Virus record (IMG/VR): IMGVR_UViG_3300036851_000217 | Span: 1 to 22,277 of that record | From: a virus | Direction: 5' to 3' (one strand) | Length of the DNA: 22,277 bases | In this document: positions 6,917 through 21,772 of the stretch, in pieces | Numbering within the stretch: the first letter of the stretch is position 1 | How the letters are laid out: every line of letters starts with the position of its first letter | Made by a program: the position numbers and the translations under genes | The notes under the pieces: model-generated | What the model was told of the DNA's origin: nothing | Databases searched by the model: none | Seen by the model: only the letters and a program-made list of their open reading frames with translations

Positions 6917-6952
6917 TTCGAAGAAGCGTAAGTAAGACAATAAAAGTCGGAG

Positions 6953-6983
6953 AAGGCCAGTCGAGAGACTGGCCTTTCTTTTT
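6953..6983 (+). terminator. Strong intrinsic terminator after major capsid gene
   Basis: AAGGCCAGTC (6953-6962) pairs perfectly with GACTGGCCTT (6967-6976) across the tetraloop GAGA, followed by TCTTTTT. The 10-bp GC-rich stem plus T-run is a textbook intrinsic terminator, 36 bases after the gp23 stop. Confidence 0.93.
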
Positions 6984-7005: not shown

Positions 7006-7034
7006 TTGACCTTATATCAAATCGAGTGTAGAAT
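7006..7034 (+). promoter_or_regulatory. Sigma70-type promoter TTGACC-17-TAGAAT
   Basis: A -35 TTGACC (7006-7011) and -10 TAGAAT (7029-7034) are separated by exactly 17 bases, each one mismatch from consensus. The start would be near 7041, 54 nt before the next gene. It lies directly after the gp23 terminator, so it could restart transcription by unmodified host polymerase. Confidence 0.65.
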
Positions 7035-7057: not shown

Positions 7058-7065
7058 AATAAATA
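7058..7065 (+). promoter_or_regulatory. T4-late-type promoter octamer AATAAATA
   Basis: A 7-of-8 match to TATAAATA downstream of the sigma70-type promoter gives tandem early/late control. The predicted start near 7071 is at the end of the left arm of the hairpin at 7066-7084. Confidence 0.55.
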
Positions 7066-8125: not shown

Positions 8126-8161
8126 AAGGTTCACACTGCTCATGTAATTCGTCCATTAGGC

Positions 8162-8169
8162 CATAAATA
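8162..8169 (+). promoter_or_regulatory. T4-late-type promoter octamer CATAAATA before gp13-like gene
   Basis: A 7-of-8 match to the late consensus. The predicted start is near 8175, inside the left arm of the hairpin at 8167-8194 and 22 nt before the ATG. Confidence 0.65.
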
Positions 8170-8194
8170 GCTCCTGATAAACCTCAGGAGCTAT
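8167..8194 (+). promoter_or_regulatory. 11-bp hairpin sequestering a Shine-Dalgarno
   Basis: ATAGCTCCTGA (8167-8177) is a perfect complement of TCAGGAGCTAT (8184-8194) with loop TAAACC. The right arm contains the Shine-Dalgarno AGGAG (8186-8190) of the gene starting at 8197. Read-through RNA would hide it. RNA from the overlapping late promoter would lack most of the left arm. Confidence 0.75.
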
Positions 8195-8196
8195 TG

Positions 8197-11100
8197 ATGG
8201 GCACGTTCGACACGTTTGCAGATACCCCTTTCCAGATTAGAAGTGAAGGCCAAACAATTACGTTGGCCTTCAAACAGGGCGTTCCAACTGCAACGCAAGG
8301 AACTGTCACTTGGAATATACCAATTCCAGGTGTTGATTGCAATACGGCAACAGATGGTCGTATGGGTGCCTATGCTGGTATTGTAATTCTGTTGAGCACA
8401 ACACCACTTACAGAAGCTAACGTTCCTGTTGATGGTACATTGTACACACCAGATCCAACAGCAAGCTATGACTTGCACTCTGGTGATAGAATTGGTGGTG
8501 CTCTTGTTGTCGGTGCTATCTACGAATGTGATCTAAAAGGCACAGATGATCTTACCACTGAATTAGTAATCTCAAATCTTGAAGATGGCGTTGCCTACTA
8601 CGTTGCAGGCTATGCTGTTGATTGTCAGAATCGATATCACTCAGAGGGTGTTCGTGCCTATTCTGATGTATATGCTGGTGGTGGCACAGCCAGCACACCA
8701 GCAATTCAACCAATCTTCATTGGTCACACAACAGATGGCTCAACACCACCAGTTGCTCCAACAGATGGCACAGGTTTAGTTCCAGGTGTGTTGTATCAAT
8801 TTGATTTGATGTACGGCACCAACTATCCAAAGTGCAATTATGATAAGATCTATCGTATTGGCATCAATGGAACAGACGCACAGACGTATGCTGATCTTAT
8901 TGATGAGTTAAACAAACAGTTTGCGTTGCTTGAAAATCCAATTCAATCTCCAGTACCACCAAACACTGGTAGATATTTCTGGGATCCTGTCAATAAGAAA
9001 TTGTATGAATTTGACGGAACACAATTAGTTCTTATTCCAGGTGTAATTGTTGAAGCCACTGATCCCTCAGTAGTAACTGAAGGAACATATTGGCATATCC
9101 CTTCAACACGTGAACTTTATATTCGTGTAGGTAGCCCAGCAGCTGGTTGGGATCCTGTTAATGTCATTAACTATGGTGATGTAAATCCTCAGGCAATGGA
9201 CTGTGATGATTACTGGTTCAATCCATTAACATCACAAGGCTATGTTTGGAATGGTTCAGCATGGTGTGAAGCAAATACAATCGTGTCTGATGCCGACCCA
9301 AGTTGCCCTCCACAAAGTCTTTGTGGCACATATTGGTATGATACTGTTAACTTGCAACTTTATGGTTGGAATGTCGATACAAAATCATGGGATGAGAAGA
9401 CAGCCACGTTTTGGCCTACTCCACCAAATGATCTTGATGATGGAACATTCTGGTTCAATAGCACAGCTAACACACTCAATGAGTGGAACGGTACAGCATT
9501 TGTTGCTACAGATGTAGTAATCAGTGCAACACAGCCAGTTGGCGTACCAGCGAACGGCTATTGGTATAATCCAACTACTGAAGAACTGAAGCAGTTTTTA
9601 GGTGGCTCACCAAATGCATACGTTGATGTACCTGTATTAGTGTGGCCAACAGATCCAACAGATGTCTCATCTTGTGATTTGTGGTGGGATTCTATCAACG
9701 ATGAATTGAGTGTTTGGGACAATGTAAATGGTATGTGGGTGACTACAGTTGGATTTGTTGAATCTGCAACCGATCCAAGCTTGCAGCCTGCAATCCCAGC
9801 TGGTACACTTTGGTACAGCCCTGCAAAGCACACAGTGTTCAAATGGGATGGTGTGGATTGGATTGTTATTGACGTAGTAGTTAATGACTATGATCCAACT
9901 CAGCCTGAAGAAGGTGATGCATGGTTCAATCCAGCTAACAATACATGGTACATCTGGTTCATCCCAAGCGCCGGTGCTTGGAACGCAATCGATCCAATCG
10001 ATTCAGAAGATGATCCAACAGCAATTCCTAATGGTGCATTCTGGTTCAACACAACCACAAACACTCTTTGGGTGCGTCAAGGCATTTCATGGATTGCAGT
10101 GCCGTATACAACTACAAGTCTTGCTCCATCGAAAGGTCAGATATACTTCAATACATCTGATGACAAGCTATACATGTGGACTGGAACGAAGTGGGTTCAA
10201 ACATACGGTTTGTTCATTGCAGCTATGAATGCAAAACAATATTGCGGAGCAAGTCCTCTTGCTCGTCAATCACAAATCTGTCTAGTAACAACTAAGAAAG
10301 GTTCAGGTCTGAACTTGAAGGTTCTTTCACCAGGTGCAACGGGAACGATCGGTACAGGCTTTGCAGATTTTGGTGTTGAGAACATGGTAGGTCCATCTGC
10401 ATATGACTATCCAAATGAAGCTCAACAAGTTATCGTAGGATCAAATGTCCCTGGAAATGCATTCTTGTGGAGCAATTTAGTACAAGGTTACACAATTCGT
10501 ACACAGATCTATGGTGCTGATGGTGTCTCAGACAAACCATCATATATGGAGCTTGGTGTTGGTACAGATGGAACACCAGACGAACGTCGTGAATTAATGG
10601 ATACGCTTCGATTCATGCTTGGTTATCCACAAGTTGATGTGGAACTAACAAAAGACAACTTGGATCGCTGTGTAACGTTCGCAATTGAACAATTGCGCTC
10701 GCGTTCCTCTCTTGGATACAAGAGAGGATTCTTCTTTCTTGATGTTCAATCAGGACAGCAGAAATACGTTCTTTCAAATAAGAAAATTGGATACAACAAG
10801 ATTGTAAACATTGGAGCTGTATACCGCTTCACCTCAGCATTCTTGAGTTCAGCTCACGGATCCGGTGTGTATGGACAGGTCGTGCTTCAGCACTTGTACA
10901 ACATGGGCACATACGATTTGACAAGTATGCACTTGGTAGCACAGTATATTGAAACAATGGAAATGATGTTTGCAACACGACTAACATTCCATTGGGATGA
11001 ACCATCACGCAGATTGGATCTTTACAATTCATTCGGTTACAGAGAGCGTGTTCTTATGGACACTACAATCGAAAGAACCGAACAGGAAATTCTGAAGGAT

Positions 11101-11337
11101 CGTTGGTCCAAGAATTGGATTCGTCAGTGGGCATTAGCTGAAGCAAAGGAAATGCTTGGACACGTCCGTAGCAAGTTCGGTAGCCTTCCAGGTGCCGGCG
11201 GTGGTATTAGCTTGAACGGTAGTGAATTGTTGTCACAAGCTGACACGATGAAACAGGCCCTTCTTTCAGAAATCGATGATTACATTGTGAACGACGCTGA
11301 AGATCTCGGCATGGGCACACAGTTCTTAATTGGATAA
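8197..11337 (+). CDS. 13: Neck protein: gp13-like C-terminal domain fused to FnIII-like and Trp-rich repeat modules
   Basis: A 1046-aa protein with three regions. Residues 1-~240 include a fibronectin-III-like module (VAYYVAGYAVDCQNRYHSEG near 130-150). Residues ~252-677 contain 11 degenerate repeats of 36-42 aa, each built on G.(F/Y)WFN....L..W.G..W and usually opened by a (T/D)DP motif; these probably form beta hairpins. From ~800 to the end is a gp13-type domain: LGYPQVDVELTKDNLD, a DRWSKNWIRQWALAEAKEML helix, and PGAGGGISLNG near 997-1007, a pattern I associate with T4-like neck proteins. gp14-like and gp15 genes follow, supporting a head-tail junction role. T4 gp13 is only ~309 aa. Start: ATG 8197 (AGGAG 6 nt upstream), not the in-frame TTG 8194. 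The gp13 identity is moderately sure. Confidence 0.7.
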   Translation: MGTFDTFADTPFQIRSEGQTITLAFKQGVPTATQGTVTWNIPIPGVDCNTATDGRMGAYAGIVILLSTTPLTEANVPVDGTLYTPDPTASYDLHSGDRIGGALVVGAIYECDLKGTDDLTTELVISNLEDGVAYYVAGYAVDCQNRYHSEGVRAYSDVYAGGGTASTPAIQPIFIGHTTDGSTPPVAPTDGTGLVPGVLYQFDLMYGTNYPKCNYDKIYRIGINGTDAQTYADLIDELNKQFALLENPIQSPVPPNTGRYFWDPVNKKLYEFDGTQLVLIPGVIVEATDPSVVTEGTYWHIPSTRELYIRVGSPAAGWDPVNVINYGDVNPQAMDCDDYWFNPLTSQGYVWNGSAWCEANTIVSDADPSCPPQSLCGTYWYDTVNLQLYGWNVDTKSWDEKTATFWPTPPNDLDDGTFWFNSTANTLNEWNGTAFVATDVVISATQPVGVPANGYWYNPTTEELKQFLGGSPNAYVDVPVLVWPTDPTDVSSCDLWWDSINDELSVWDNVNGMWVTTVGFVESATDPSLQPAIPAGTLWYSPAKHTVFKWDGVDWIVIDVVVNDYDPTQPEEGDAWFNPANNTWYIWFIPSAGAWNAIDPIDSEDDPTAIPNGAFWFNTTTNTLWVRQGISWIAVPYTTTSLAPSKGQIYFNTSDDKLYMWTGTKWVQTYGLFIAAMNAKQYCGASPLARQSQICLVTTKKGSGLNLKVLSPGATGTIGTGFADFGVENMVGPSAYDYPNEAQQVIVGSNVPGNAFLWSNLVQGYTIRTQIYGADGVSDKPSYMELGVGTDGTPDERRELMDTLRFMLGYPQVDVELTKDNLDRCVTFAIEQLRSRSSLGYKRGFFFLDVQSGQQKYVLSNKKIGYNKIVNIGAVYRFTSAFLSSAHGSGVYGQVVLQHLYNMGTYDLTSMHLVAQYIETMEMMFATRLTFHWDEPSRRLDLYNSFGYRERVLMDTTIERTEQEILKDRWSKNWIRQWALAEAKEMLGHVRSKFGSLPGAGGGISLNGSELLSQADTMKQALLSEIDDYIVNDAEDLGMGTQFLIG
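8950..10227 (+). repeat. Eleven degenerate protein repeats in the neck gene
   Basis: I count 11 units of about 36-42 codons, recognisable by an aromatic triplet (FWF, YWY, YWF, LWW, AWF) followed by N or D, and then by W.G..W. They are divergent at DNA level, so they are old rather than recently amplified. Confidence 0.8.
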
Positions 11338-11681: not shown

Positions 11682-13327
11682 CAAGAGACTGCCCACCACC
11701 ATGTGAAACAACTACGGGTCCTACATTTCCAGAAGATGTAGTACCACCAGGTCAGTGTGTTCCTAATCAAAATGGTGTGTTCTGCCCTCCAAAACCAGTT
11801 GATCCAACATGCCGCACGTGGCAGTTGGATAAAAGTCGTGATTCCTGCTATATTGATAGCCTCACAAACGAAGCACTAAACATTGCAGGTGCCACCTTAC
11901 ATGTATACAAACTCCTTGGCGTTCATGAACAAGGCAAACTTGTAGATGCAGTCGGATACGGCTCAGCCATTTCTAATGGCGATCTACCAGGCTATCCAGC
12001 ACGTTATGCATTTGACGCATTTGTGCACGAGTGGAGATCAATCCAGAAGGGAACAAACATTCCAGCTGGAGCATTCATCGGATATGACTTTGGTGAGATT
12101 AAGCGCCTAGATGGTTCACCAAGAATGTATGGTATTGAAGCGAATGTACGTAAACACATTATGGCATTCTCAATCAAACAGTCTTCTAATGCTAAAAATC
12201 GTGCTACTAAGTTACGCCTTGAACGTTCAGATGACGGTGTCAAGTGGTACGGCGTTTCGATTGTACCAATTCCTGACAATGATTGCTTGAACACAGTACT
12301 TACAAAGTCTTCTGTTCCTTCCCGTTACTGGAGATTCCGTCCTGTTGAGTTCAATGGCGGAGCTGTTGATTACTGGGGGGTACAGGCTATTCAGCTGTTC
12401 CCAGACTATCAAGCAACAGACATCAATAACATTCAAGACAAGATCTTCCTTGAGAATCGCGACCGTGATTATGCTTCTGATCCGATTACAATCAAGGGCT
12501 ATTACGATCTTGTAGATATTCAATCAGAGCTTTCAAAGTTTGGCATTGAACTTCCAAGTCAAACTCTTTCATTGCGTGTTAACTTTACTCAATGCGTAGC
12601 AGCGTTGGGTCGCCCACTTGTTGTTGGTGATATCATTGAGATTCCAAGCGAAGCTCAATATTCAGCTCTAATGAAGAAAGTCCTGAAGTGGATGGAAGTA
12701 ACAGATATTGGTTGGAGCTCAGAAGGCTACACACCAGGTTGGCAGCCAACGTTACAGACAATTACTTTGCAGCCTGCAATGGTAACACAAGAGACACAGG
12801 ACTTGTTCGGTGATCTTGCAAACGTACCTGCACCAAATGGTCTTGGGTTGATTGAAAATAACGATGGCAATGATGAATTCTTCCAAGACTACTTCGACGC
12901 TTCTCAAACAGCAACGGCTAATGCAAAAGATGATGTACCCGAGAAAGGAGCTGAAGGATCAAGCACGATTCGTGCTTGGGAGCAGTATGAGCTTGATAAC
13001 GCAGCAGCTCAAGGTGTTAAGAATCTTCAAAAGATTGGCTTGAACTATAAAGGTTTGTACGTTGAAGATGCTATGCCACCTAACAACGCAGCCTTCACAG
13101 AAGGTCCAACATATCCAACCGGTCCAGTACATGGTGCATATCACCGCTTAACATTTGAAGGATTGTCAAAAGACATTCCTGCTCAATTACATCGCTACTC
13201 TTCTGACAAAGCACGTTGGATCTATTTGGAGACTGATCGCCGCGCTCAGTACAATCCTGATATGCCAACATTACAAGAATTCTTGGTTTCACCAACAAAG
13301 AAGCCTGAAAATAAGATCACTAAATAA
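11678..13327 (+). CDS. 14: Neck protein gp14-like with N-terminal discoidin/F5-8C-like domain
   Basis: The 549 aa compare with 256 aa in T4 gp14. Residues 1-60 are Pro/Cys-rich (Cys at 5, 9, 27, 36, 45, 57). About 70-242 resembles an F5/8 type C (discoidin) fold: YAFDAFVHEW (110-119), IGYDFG (134-139), LRLERSDDGVKW (179-190), SRYWRF (215-220) and WGVQAIQLF (233-241). This fold usually binds sugars or lipids. About 285-380 matches the T4 gp14 core: KFGIELPSQ (compare FGMQVQDEV), a hydrophobic GRPLVVGDIIEIPS (compare EGDLIYFP), then TPGWQPTL and LQPAM.TQET. No Shine-Dalgarno is visible; the ATGA overlap implies coupling. The six-G run at 12375-12380 keeps frame. gp15 follows immediately, as in T4. 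Confidence 0.75.
   Translation: MTRDCPPPCETTTGPTFPEDVVPPGQCVPNQNGVFCPPKPVDPTCRTWQLDKSRDSCYIDSLTNEALNIAGATLHVYKLLGVHEQGKLVDAVGYGSAISNGDLPGYPARYAFDAFVHEWRSIQKGTNIPAGAFIGYDFGEIKRLDGSPRMYGIEANVRKHIMAFSIKQSSNAKNRATKLRLERSDDGVKWYGVSIVPIPDNDCLNTVLTKSSVPSRYWRFRPVEFNGGAVDYWGVQAIQLFPDYQATDINNIQDKIFLENRDRDYASDPITIKGYYDLVDIQSELSKFGIELPSQTLSLRVNFTQCVAALGRPLVVGDIIEIPSEAQYSALMKKVLKWMEVTDIGWSSEGYTPGWQPTLQTITLQPAMVTQETQDLFGDLANVPAPNGLGLIENNDGNDEFFQDYFDASQTATANAKDDVPEKGAEGSSTIRAWEQYELDNAAAQGVKNLQKIGLNYKGLYVEDAMPPNNAAFTEGPTYPTGPVHGAYHRLTFEGLSKDIPAQLHRYSSDKARWIYLETDRRAQYNPDMPTLQEFLVSPTKKPENKITK
13319..13326 (+). promoter_or_regulatory. Possible late octamer ACTAAATA at gp14/gp15 junction
   Basis: It carries the TAAATA core and overlaps the last codons and stop of the gp14-like gene. 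If used, RNA would start near 13332, one base before the gp15 ATG. It may simply be coding sequence. Confidence 0.25.
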
Positions 13328-16694: not shown

Positions 16695-16724
16695 AATAAT
16701 AGGGCCGAACGGCCCTATTATTTT
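16695..16724 (+). terminator. Intrinsic terminator after tail tube gene
   Basis: AATAATAGGGCC (16695-16706) pairs perfectly with GGCCCTATTATT (16711-16722) across the loop GAAC. The 12-bp stem merges with the T-rich 3' end. The matching A-rich left flank would also allow it to work weakly from the minus strand. Confidence 0.92.
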
Positions 16725-16738
16725 GTCTACAACATTTA

Positions 16739-16746
16739 GATAAATA
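16739..16746 (+). promoter_or_regulatory. T4-late-type promoter octamer GATAAATA
   Basis: It restarts transcription just after the gene 19 terminator. The predicted start near 16752 is two bases upstream of AAGGAG (16754-16759), so late RNA would have a very short 16-nt leader. Confidence 0.6.
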
Positions 16747-21174: not shown

Positions 21175-21182
21175 CATAAATA
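21175..21182 (+). promoter_or_regulatory. T4-late-type promoter octamer CATAAATA
   Basis: A 7-of-8 match 3 bases after the kinase stop. With T4 geometry the RNA starts at about 21188, which is the A of the next gene's ATG. Confidence 0.55.
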
Positions 21183-21206
21183 ATGTGATGAGTGACTCAT
21201 CACATT
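21182..21206 (+). promoter_or_regulatory. 11-bp hairpin containing the start codon of the SWIM gene
   Basis: AATGTGATGAG (21182-21192) pairs perfectly with CTCATCACATT (21196-21206), leaving a 3-nt loop. The left arm contains GTG 21185 and ATG 21188. RNA reading through from the kinase promoter would bury the start codon. Confidence 0.65.
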
Positions 21207-21772
21207 GGTTAATTCGTGGCGCCCGTATAGAGCAACAGCTTGAACGCGAAATTGTTCAGCTGGAAGAACGTTCCTATCAGGATCTCGAAGTCAAAACCAA
21301 GAACTTCGCTCCACCTGCAAGTCCGACAGCACGTCAAAATGCTGTCGGTCCTATCCAAGTTCAGAAGCTTCAATTGATTCCAGCACGACAAAGTGGTTCG
21401 CTTGAAGTTAAAGCGCTCGTATCTAGTAAGAACTCAAAGTACAATCCATCACTTCAATTTGACAAAGTAATATTTGATGATTCAGATCAGTCTGATAACA
21501 CATCATTTAAAGGTGTTGATGGACAGGAATATCATATCGTTCCAATTCCTCTGGCTCAGAGCAATGTGAAAGTGCAGTGTAACTGCTTAGACTTCTACTA
21601 CCGATTTGCTCAGTACAATAGTCGCGATGGAAGTTTGCTTGGACAGCCCCCACCTCCATATCAACGCAAGACAATGACACGACCGCCAGCTAATATTCAA
21701 AAGACACCCGGCGTGTGCAAACACATTATGAAAGCTATCGTAGCGTTGAAGGGTGTAGATATCGTTCGTTAA
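21188..21772 (+). CDS. SWIM-type zinc-finger-like protein of unknown role
   Basis: A 194-aa protein. Near the C-terminus is CNC (131-133), then 43 residues with LDFYYRFAQYN and a Pro-rich PPPPYQRK, then CKH (177-179). This is the CxC...CxH zinc-ligand order of SWIM domains, which bind DNA or proteins; the spacer is long for SWIM. The N-terminal ~50 residues are helical and charged. A kinase-gene stop at 21170 and lack of other start codons restrict the start to GTG 21185 or ATG 21188. No Shine-Dalgarno is present. It ends tail-to-tail with a minus-strand gene, sharing TTAA (21769-21772). I have seen similar conserved proteins in T4-like phages but cannot assign a role. Confidence 0.78.
   Translation: MSDSSHWLIRGARIEQQLEREIVQLEERSYQDLEVKTKNFAPPASPTARQNAVGPIQVQKLQLIPARQSGSLEVKALVSSKNSKYNPSLQFDKVIFDDSDQSDNTSFKGVDGQEYHIVPIPLAQSNVKVQCNCLDFYYRFAQYNSRDGSLLGQPPPPYQRKTMTRPPANIQKTPGVCKHIMKAIVALKGVDIVR

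Follow-up and report, generated by a model that had tools for sequence, protein, structure and literature searches.

A promoter-dependent translational switch of the kind described in phage T4 very probably operates at the neck protein gene of a T4-related giant phage, as judged from the leader sequence and its relatives. RNA reading in from upstream would keep both arms of an inverted repeat and form a hairpin of 12 to 17 bp, which would bury the Shine-Dalgarno (SD) sequence and AUG of the neck gene and leave the long RNA untranslated. RNA from the gene's own late promoter would instead begin at about position 8175 and keep only about 3 nt of the left arm, so that the ribosome site would be open and neck protein could be translated. 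The anatomy of this putative switch is well supported; we infer that read-through RNA exists and that its translation is repressed. The device is a known one from T4, and the gene and the phage group are new for it. It would thus bring a classic T4 regulatory device to T4-related giant phages, a large group most of which is uncultured, where a conserved core virion gene appears to have retained it despite deep divergence (30 to 48% protein identity). The use suggested below, the setting of protein ratios within one expression class, is other than the textbook one.

The window, meaning the whole stretch of DNA analyzed, is a 22,277-base IMG/VR fragment from a T4-related giant phage and contains a block of late structural genes, namely those for portal, protease, capsid, neck, sheath, tube, and terminase. 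The neck protein gene (positions 8197 to 11337, + strand) encodes 1,046 amino acids, made up of a T4 gp13-type C terminus and a long N-terminal extension, and a profile match (phrog_211, E value of 1.8e-170) places its product in the head-tail adaptor Ad2 (gp13-type) family. No Pfam match was obtained for the neck protein or for the neighboring proteins tried, and a DNA-level search of the neck region against named phages found none. A 221-aa gene directly precedes the octamer, the hairpin, and the neck gene. Farther upstream, a terminator-like intrinsic hairpin (6952 to 6977, + strand) lies 3′ of the major capsid gene.

The late octamer, AGGAG, and ATG that a sequence-only reading of this DNA had placed around 8162 to 8199 are all present. 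The octamer, CATAAATA (8162 to 8169, + strand), is a sequence match to T4-type late promoters and lies in the same place in most neck-gene relatives. The perfect 11-bp inverted repeat of that reading also exists but is longer: its perfect core is 12 bp (AATAGCTCCTGA at 8166 to 8177 and TCAGGAGCTATT at 8184 to 8195), and the full repeat (8161 to 8177 and 8184 to 8200, + strand) comprises 17 nt at 94% with one mismatch, spanning the octamer, the AGGAG, and the ATG. As had been proposed, the left arm overlaps the octamer, lying between it and the predicted RNA start and mostly upstream of the latter, and the right arm hides the ribosome site of the neck gene, covering the SD AGGAG (8186 to 8190), the spacer, and the ATG (8197 to 8199). 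Of the features that define the T4 kind of switch, sequence can settle two, and the window has both: a T4-type late octamer a short way before the gene, and a right arm over the SD and/or AUG. At short range, the 22-kb window has no inverted repeats longer than this one and another at 21177 to 21193 and 21195 to 21211; both of these start at a late octamer. The window shows no excess of octamer-like words (15 found versus 15.5 expected); it is their placement that matters.

Folding predictions separated the two RNAs. RNA covering 8140 to 8230 folded at -30.9 kcal/mol, compared with -16.9 ± 3.3 for shuffled sequences (z of -4.2; 0/200), while RNA from the predicted start at 8175 folded at -6.6 (z of +1.2), so its structure is not unusual. 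The predicted probability that the SD is free was 0.00 in the long RNA and 0.32, which is only moderately free, in the short RNA.

The position of the late RNA start was approached through octamer spacing. Distances from the octamer to the first ATG of an ORF in this phage group show, besides a broad hump at 19 to 42 nt, a sharp spike confined to 5 nt. This spike contains 20 ORFs versus ~1.2 per other short spacing and was drawn from G001, G002, G008, G009, XacN1, and RAS14; no such spike was seen in the 36 kb of T4 that were examined. In XacN1 and RAS14, 11 distinct sites with the 5-nt spacing were inspected, and every one opens an ORF of at least 114 aa; sites of this spacing include RAS14 200386 and 281509. 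Both of the RAS14 sites that were looked up are annotated gene starts. A few 5-nt sites chosen from other relatives open no long frame, as expected of a short pattern. A simple reading is that the spike represents putative leaderless late RNAs whose AUG is +1, and this reading places the late RNA start of the neck gene at 8175 (+ strand; octamer plus 5 nt, then +1). We infer the same start from the spike combined with T4 geometry, and the spike backs the earlier proposal of a start near 8175. A late RNA begun at that point would lack most of the left arm. Of 11 relatives searched, not counting T4 itself, 10 have a member of the T4 gp55 late sigma family.

A likely source of read-through into the hairpin is a late-type octamer of the 112-aa gene, AATAAATA (7058 to 7065, + strand), from which no + strand terminator-like site was found up to 8162. 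Since many homologs of the 112-aa gene also have an octamer in front, RNA reading into the hairpin would more plausibly be late than early. The hairpin could then serve as an insulator, with a low-copy connector translated only from RNA of its own promoter and not overproduced from late RNA of the capsid region. The same reading, for which as a whole we see about an even chance, takes in intrinsic terminators that some related phages would use before some promoters, the loss of the promoter in others, where the neck start would lie at the end of the upstream gene, and late genes that would be leaderless, their RNA beginning at its own AUG. If the hairpin is an insulator, the amount of neck protein would follow the neck gene's own promoter.

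The sequence-only reading had favored early/late timing, as in T4 gene e, with read-through RNA from 7006 to 7034 staying silent. The promoter there would be of the sigma70 type, and its early or middle RNA would go untranslated until the onset of late transcription. We consider this use possible but somewhat doubtful. The site in question (TTGACC-17-TAGAAT, 10/12) lies downstream of the capsid terminator and ahead of the 112-aa gene, no + strand terminator-like site separates it from the hairpin, and T4 provides precedents (PMC3014915, PMC2988022). However, sigma70-like sites occur in this stretch at chance frequency (3 found versus 4.1 expected), the 112-aa gene and many of its homologs have the late-type octamer, and the neighboring genes are structural and hence expected to be late. 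The chance-level standing of the 7006 to 7034 site, together with the late octamer of the 112-aa gene, favors insulation over a pure early/late block.

Leaders of known T4 systems resemble the neck leader to different degrees. In T4 gene e (lysozyme), the octamer is followed by ATACCTTCTA, which pairs with TAGGAGGTAT before the ATG, and the late promoters lie within the left arm of the leader hairpin (PMC3014915). The same code applied to T4 recovers e, and the arms of relative L002 (ATACCTTGTA and TACAGGAGTAT) are almost identical to those of T4 e. Unlike the neck gene, e is a lysis gene on early RNA and has two late promoters; the neck gene has a single octamer and an upstream neighbor with a late-type octamer. 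The leader of T4 gene 49 (endonuclease VII), AATAAATACCCTTATC...AAGGTAAGGGTTTATTATG, folds with the same geometry as the neck leader, its octamer pairing with the SD-ATG spacer as in relatives L033 and L003, but gene 49 is non-structural and, according to the literature, is carried on a long early/middle RNA. The leader geometry of both genes thus agrees with the proposed likeness to e and 49. For I-TevI/II/III, segB, and mobE (Aeh1), upstream RNA sequesters the SD and a late promoter within the left arm relieves this (PMC2988022); these are genes of mobile endonucleases rather than of the conserved virion core. The 60 nt upstream of the T4 gene 13 ATG contain no octamer; this leader has a GC-rich hairpin 5′ of the SD instead. 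The claim that the device is new on a structural gene was too strong, as the T4 soc product is a capsid protein. T4 soc, 25, and 26 have already been reported with RNA structure that sequesters the ribosome binding site (PMC2988022); they are virion-related, like the neck gene, but are different genes. Of the earlier interpretation, the hairpin, the predicted RNA start, and the T4-like geometry are supported; early read-through from 7006 to 7034 is not supported, and novelty for structural genes was overstated.

Conservation was examined in 73 neck loci at 30 to 48% protein identity, obtained from one alignment-based scan. Their leaders were grouped into 35 distinct clusters for pairing tests, and since neck leaders share ancestry, these clusters are not fully independent. 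The octamer lies 27 to 40 nt before the ATG in most relatives. On a tree of 61 neck proteins (L008/L067 was left out: frameshifted, octamer region missing), the window's clade has 22 members, of which 19 have the stem; outside this clade, it is present or absent irregularly, and eight leaders have no octamer. No stem is present in XacN1 or RAS14. The RNA between the octamer and the predicted start can pair with the SD region in many relatives, although the sequences differ; examples are GCTCCTGA/TCAGGAGC, CTTGTA/TACAGG (one G-U), CTCCCA/TGGGAG, and ATCCTA/TAGGAT. Unconserved stem sequence in close relatives had been named in advance as grounds for abandoning the switch. Stem sequence does change, but pairing is mostly kept, so those grounds do not apply. 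The SD zone pairs with octamer positions 5 to 13 and hardly elsewhere in the 120-nt leader, and the SD-pairing signal stops at the predicted RNA start. The architecture is thus kept in relatives, a supporting rather than defining feature. For some relatives (e.g., L003 and L005), the short RNA does not exceed the long one in predicted accessibility of the SD.

Exchanging arms between leaders weakened pairing. Across the 35 neck clusters, own arms had a mean of -5.15 kcal/mol versus -3.36 ± 0.31 kcal/mol for swapped arms (0/20,000 permutations), and within the window's clade alone the P value was 88/20,000 (0.004). Covariation in a fixed register, measured on alignment A2 (20 leaders from the window's clade and its neighbors), showed no excess (0.116 versus 0.124 for shuffled). 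The pairing register differs by one from member to member, and sequence constraint acts on the octamer as well as on the SD; we therefore relied on the swap test and on specificity over covariation, which counts as moderate evidence only. Because of the same sequence constraint, column-wise compensatory change in a fixed structure, which was not found, is a supporting and not a defining feature. Much of the conservation signal is complementarity, not compensatory change.

These results bear on an unlikely alternative, in which the repeat is functionless and arises by chance, or as an extended late-promoter consensus (ATACTCC) meets the SD consensus. The constraint on the octamer and the SD and the covariation null fit this view, as does the fact that CTCC after the octamer complements GGAG by itself. 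Shuffled leaders also often pair: mid-shuffled neck leaders still gave 10.8 ± 1.3 "stems" of 35, so the stem count is in part, but not entirely, due to composition and to complementarity between octamer and spacer. Other late promoters of the same phages, however, seldom pair. By one fixed measure, a stem was scored in 18 of 35 neck clusters and in 8 of 85 other late leaders (P = 1.6e-6), with mean expected pairs of 6.1 and 1.4, respectively, and of the 60 late leaders in a 363-kb relative, that of the neck gene ranks highest. Own arms outperform swapped arms, and the stem in the window reaches far past CTCC/GGAG. Marine T4-like gp13 leaders, which have the same protein family and octamer as the window, lack the hairpin signal (a stem in only 3 of 23 clusters and a null arm-swap result). 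This comparison argues against chance, and it also indicates that the hairpin is not shared by gp13 genes in general.

It is very unlikely that the palindrome acts at the DNA level, as an operator or cruciform affecting use of the late promoter. Its arms do overlap the promoter, and T4 I-TevI, which binds its own late promoter, sets a precedent for autorepression (PMC2988022). Arm sequences nevertheless vary among relatives with pairing mostly kept, which is unlike a sequence-specific site; the predicted RNA stems hold 21 G-U pairs and only 2 internal A-C mismatches; and the arms consistently reach the SD/AUG. A terminator or RNase processing site is the least probable explanation of what is a stable stem-loop between genes, since no U-run follows the stem (GCTATTGATGGG), the 8161 to 8200 hairpin is not among the terminator-like sites, the stem includes the SD and AUG of the next gene, and the window has no Rfam match.

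Viral contigs scanned for the combination of octamer, CTCCT, and AGGAG yielded T4-type e (lysozyme) genes and putative GIY-YIG endonucleases along with the present neck family. The control pattern, ATAAATACCTTC, contained T4 e itself and is therefore a poor negative control. The same octamer/SD hairpin was observed at L111 (- strand, octamer at 2818), L120 (+ strand, octamer at 12067), and L089 (+ strand); the genes under these hairpins are those for a 333-aa protein with a signal-like N terminus and a 118-aa membrane-like protein, plus a third gene. Leaders with an octamer and CTCCT...AGGAG were also found repeatedly at phrog_452-type phage nucleases (MYEYRA..VDGDTVDVDIDLGFG) in L125, L128, L136, L196, and others, and these nucleases are possibly another gene class under a hairpin switch.

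Terminator-like sites were noted elsewhere. In the window, a perfect 13-bp inverted repeat followed by TTGT (16695 to 16722) sits between the tail tube gene and a 455-aa gene, upstream of an octamer at 16739. As a candidate replacement for the stem, upstream terminators were rejected: they occurred at 1 of 28 leaders with a stem and 3 of 25 others, which is not a significant difference.

A leaderless late gene class, if real, would improve start-codon annotation. In the region 21175 to 21211 of the window, a late octamer precedes the ATG (21188) of a 194-aa gene by exactly 5 nt, and the product is probably made from a leaderless late mRNA; the 5-nt octamer-ATG spacing is shared by each of the four homologs whose start could be aligned (L099, L104, L116, and L118). 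Its start lies inside the second 17-nt inverted repeat, with no terminator directly in front, whereas in the four homologs a terminator-like hairpin closely precedes the octamer. At a chitinase-annotated gene of XacN1, the annotated start is 72 nt downstream of a 5-nt-spaced ATG.
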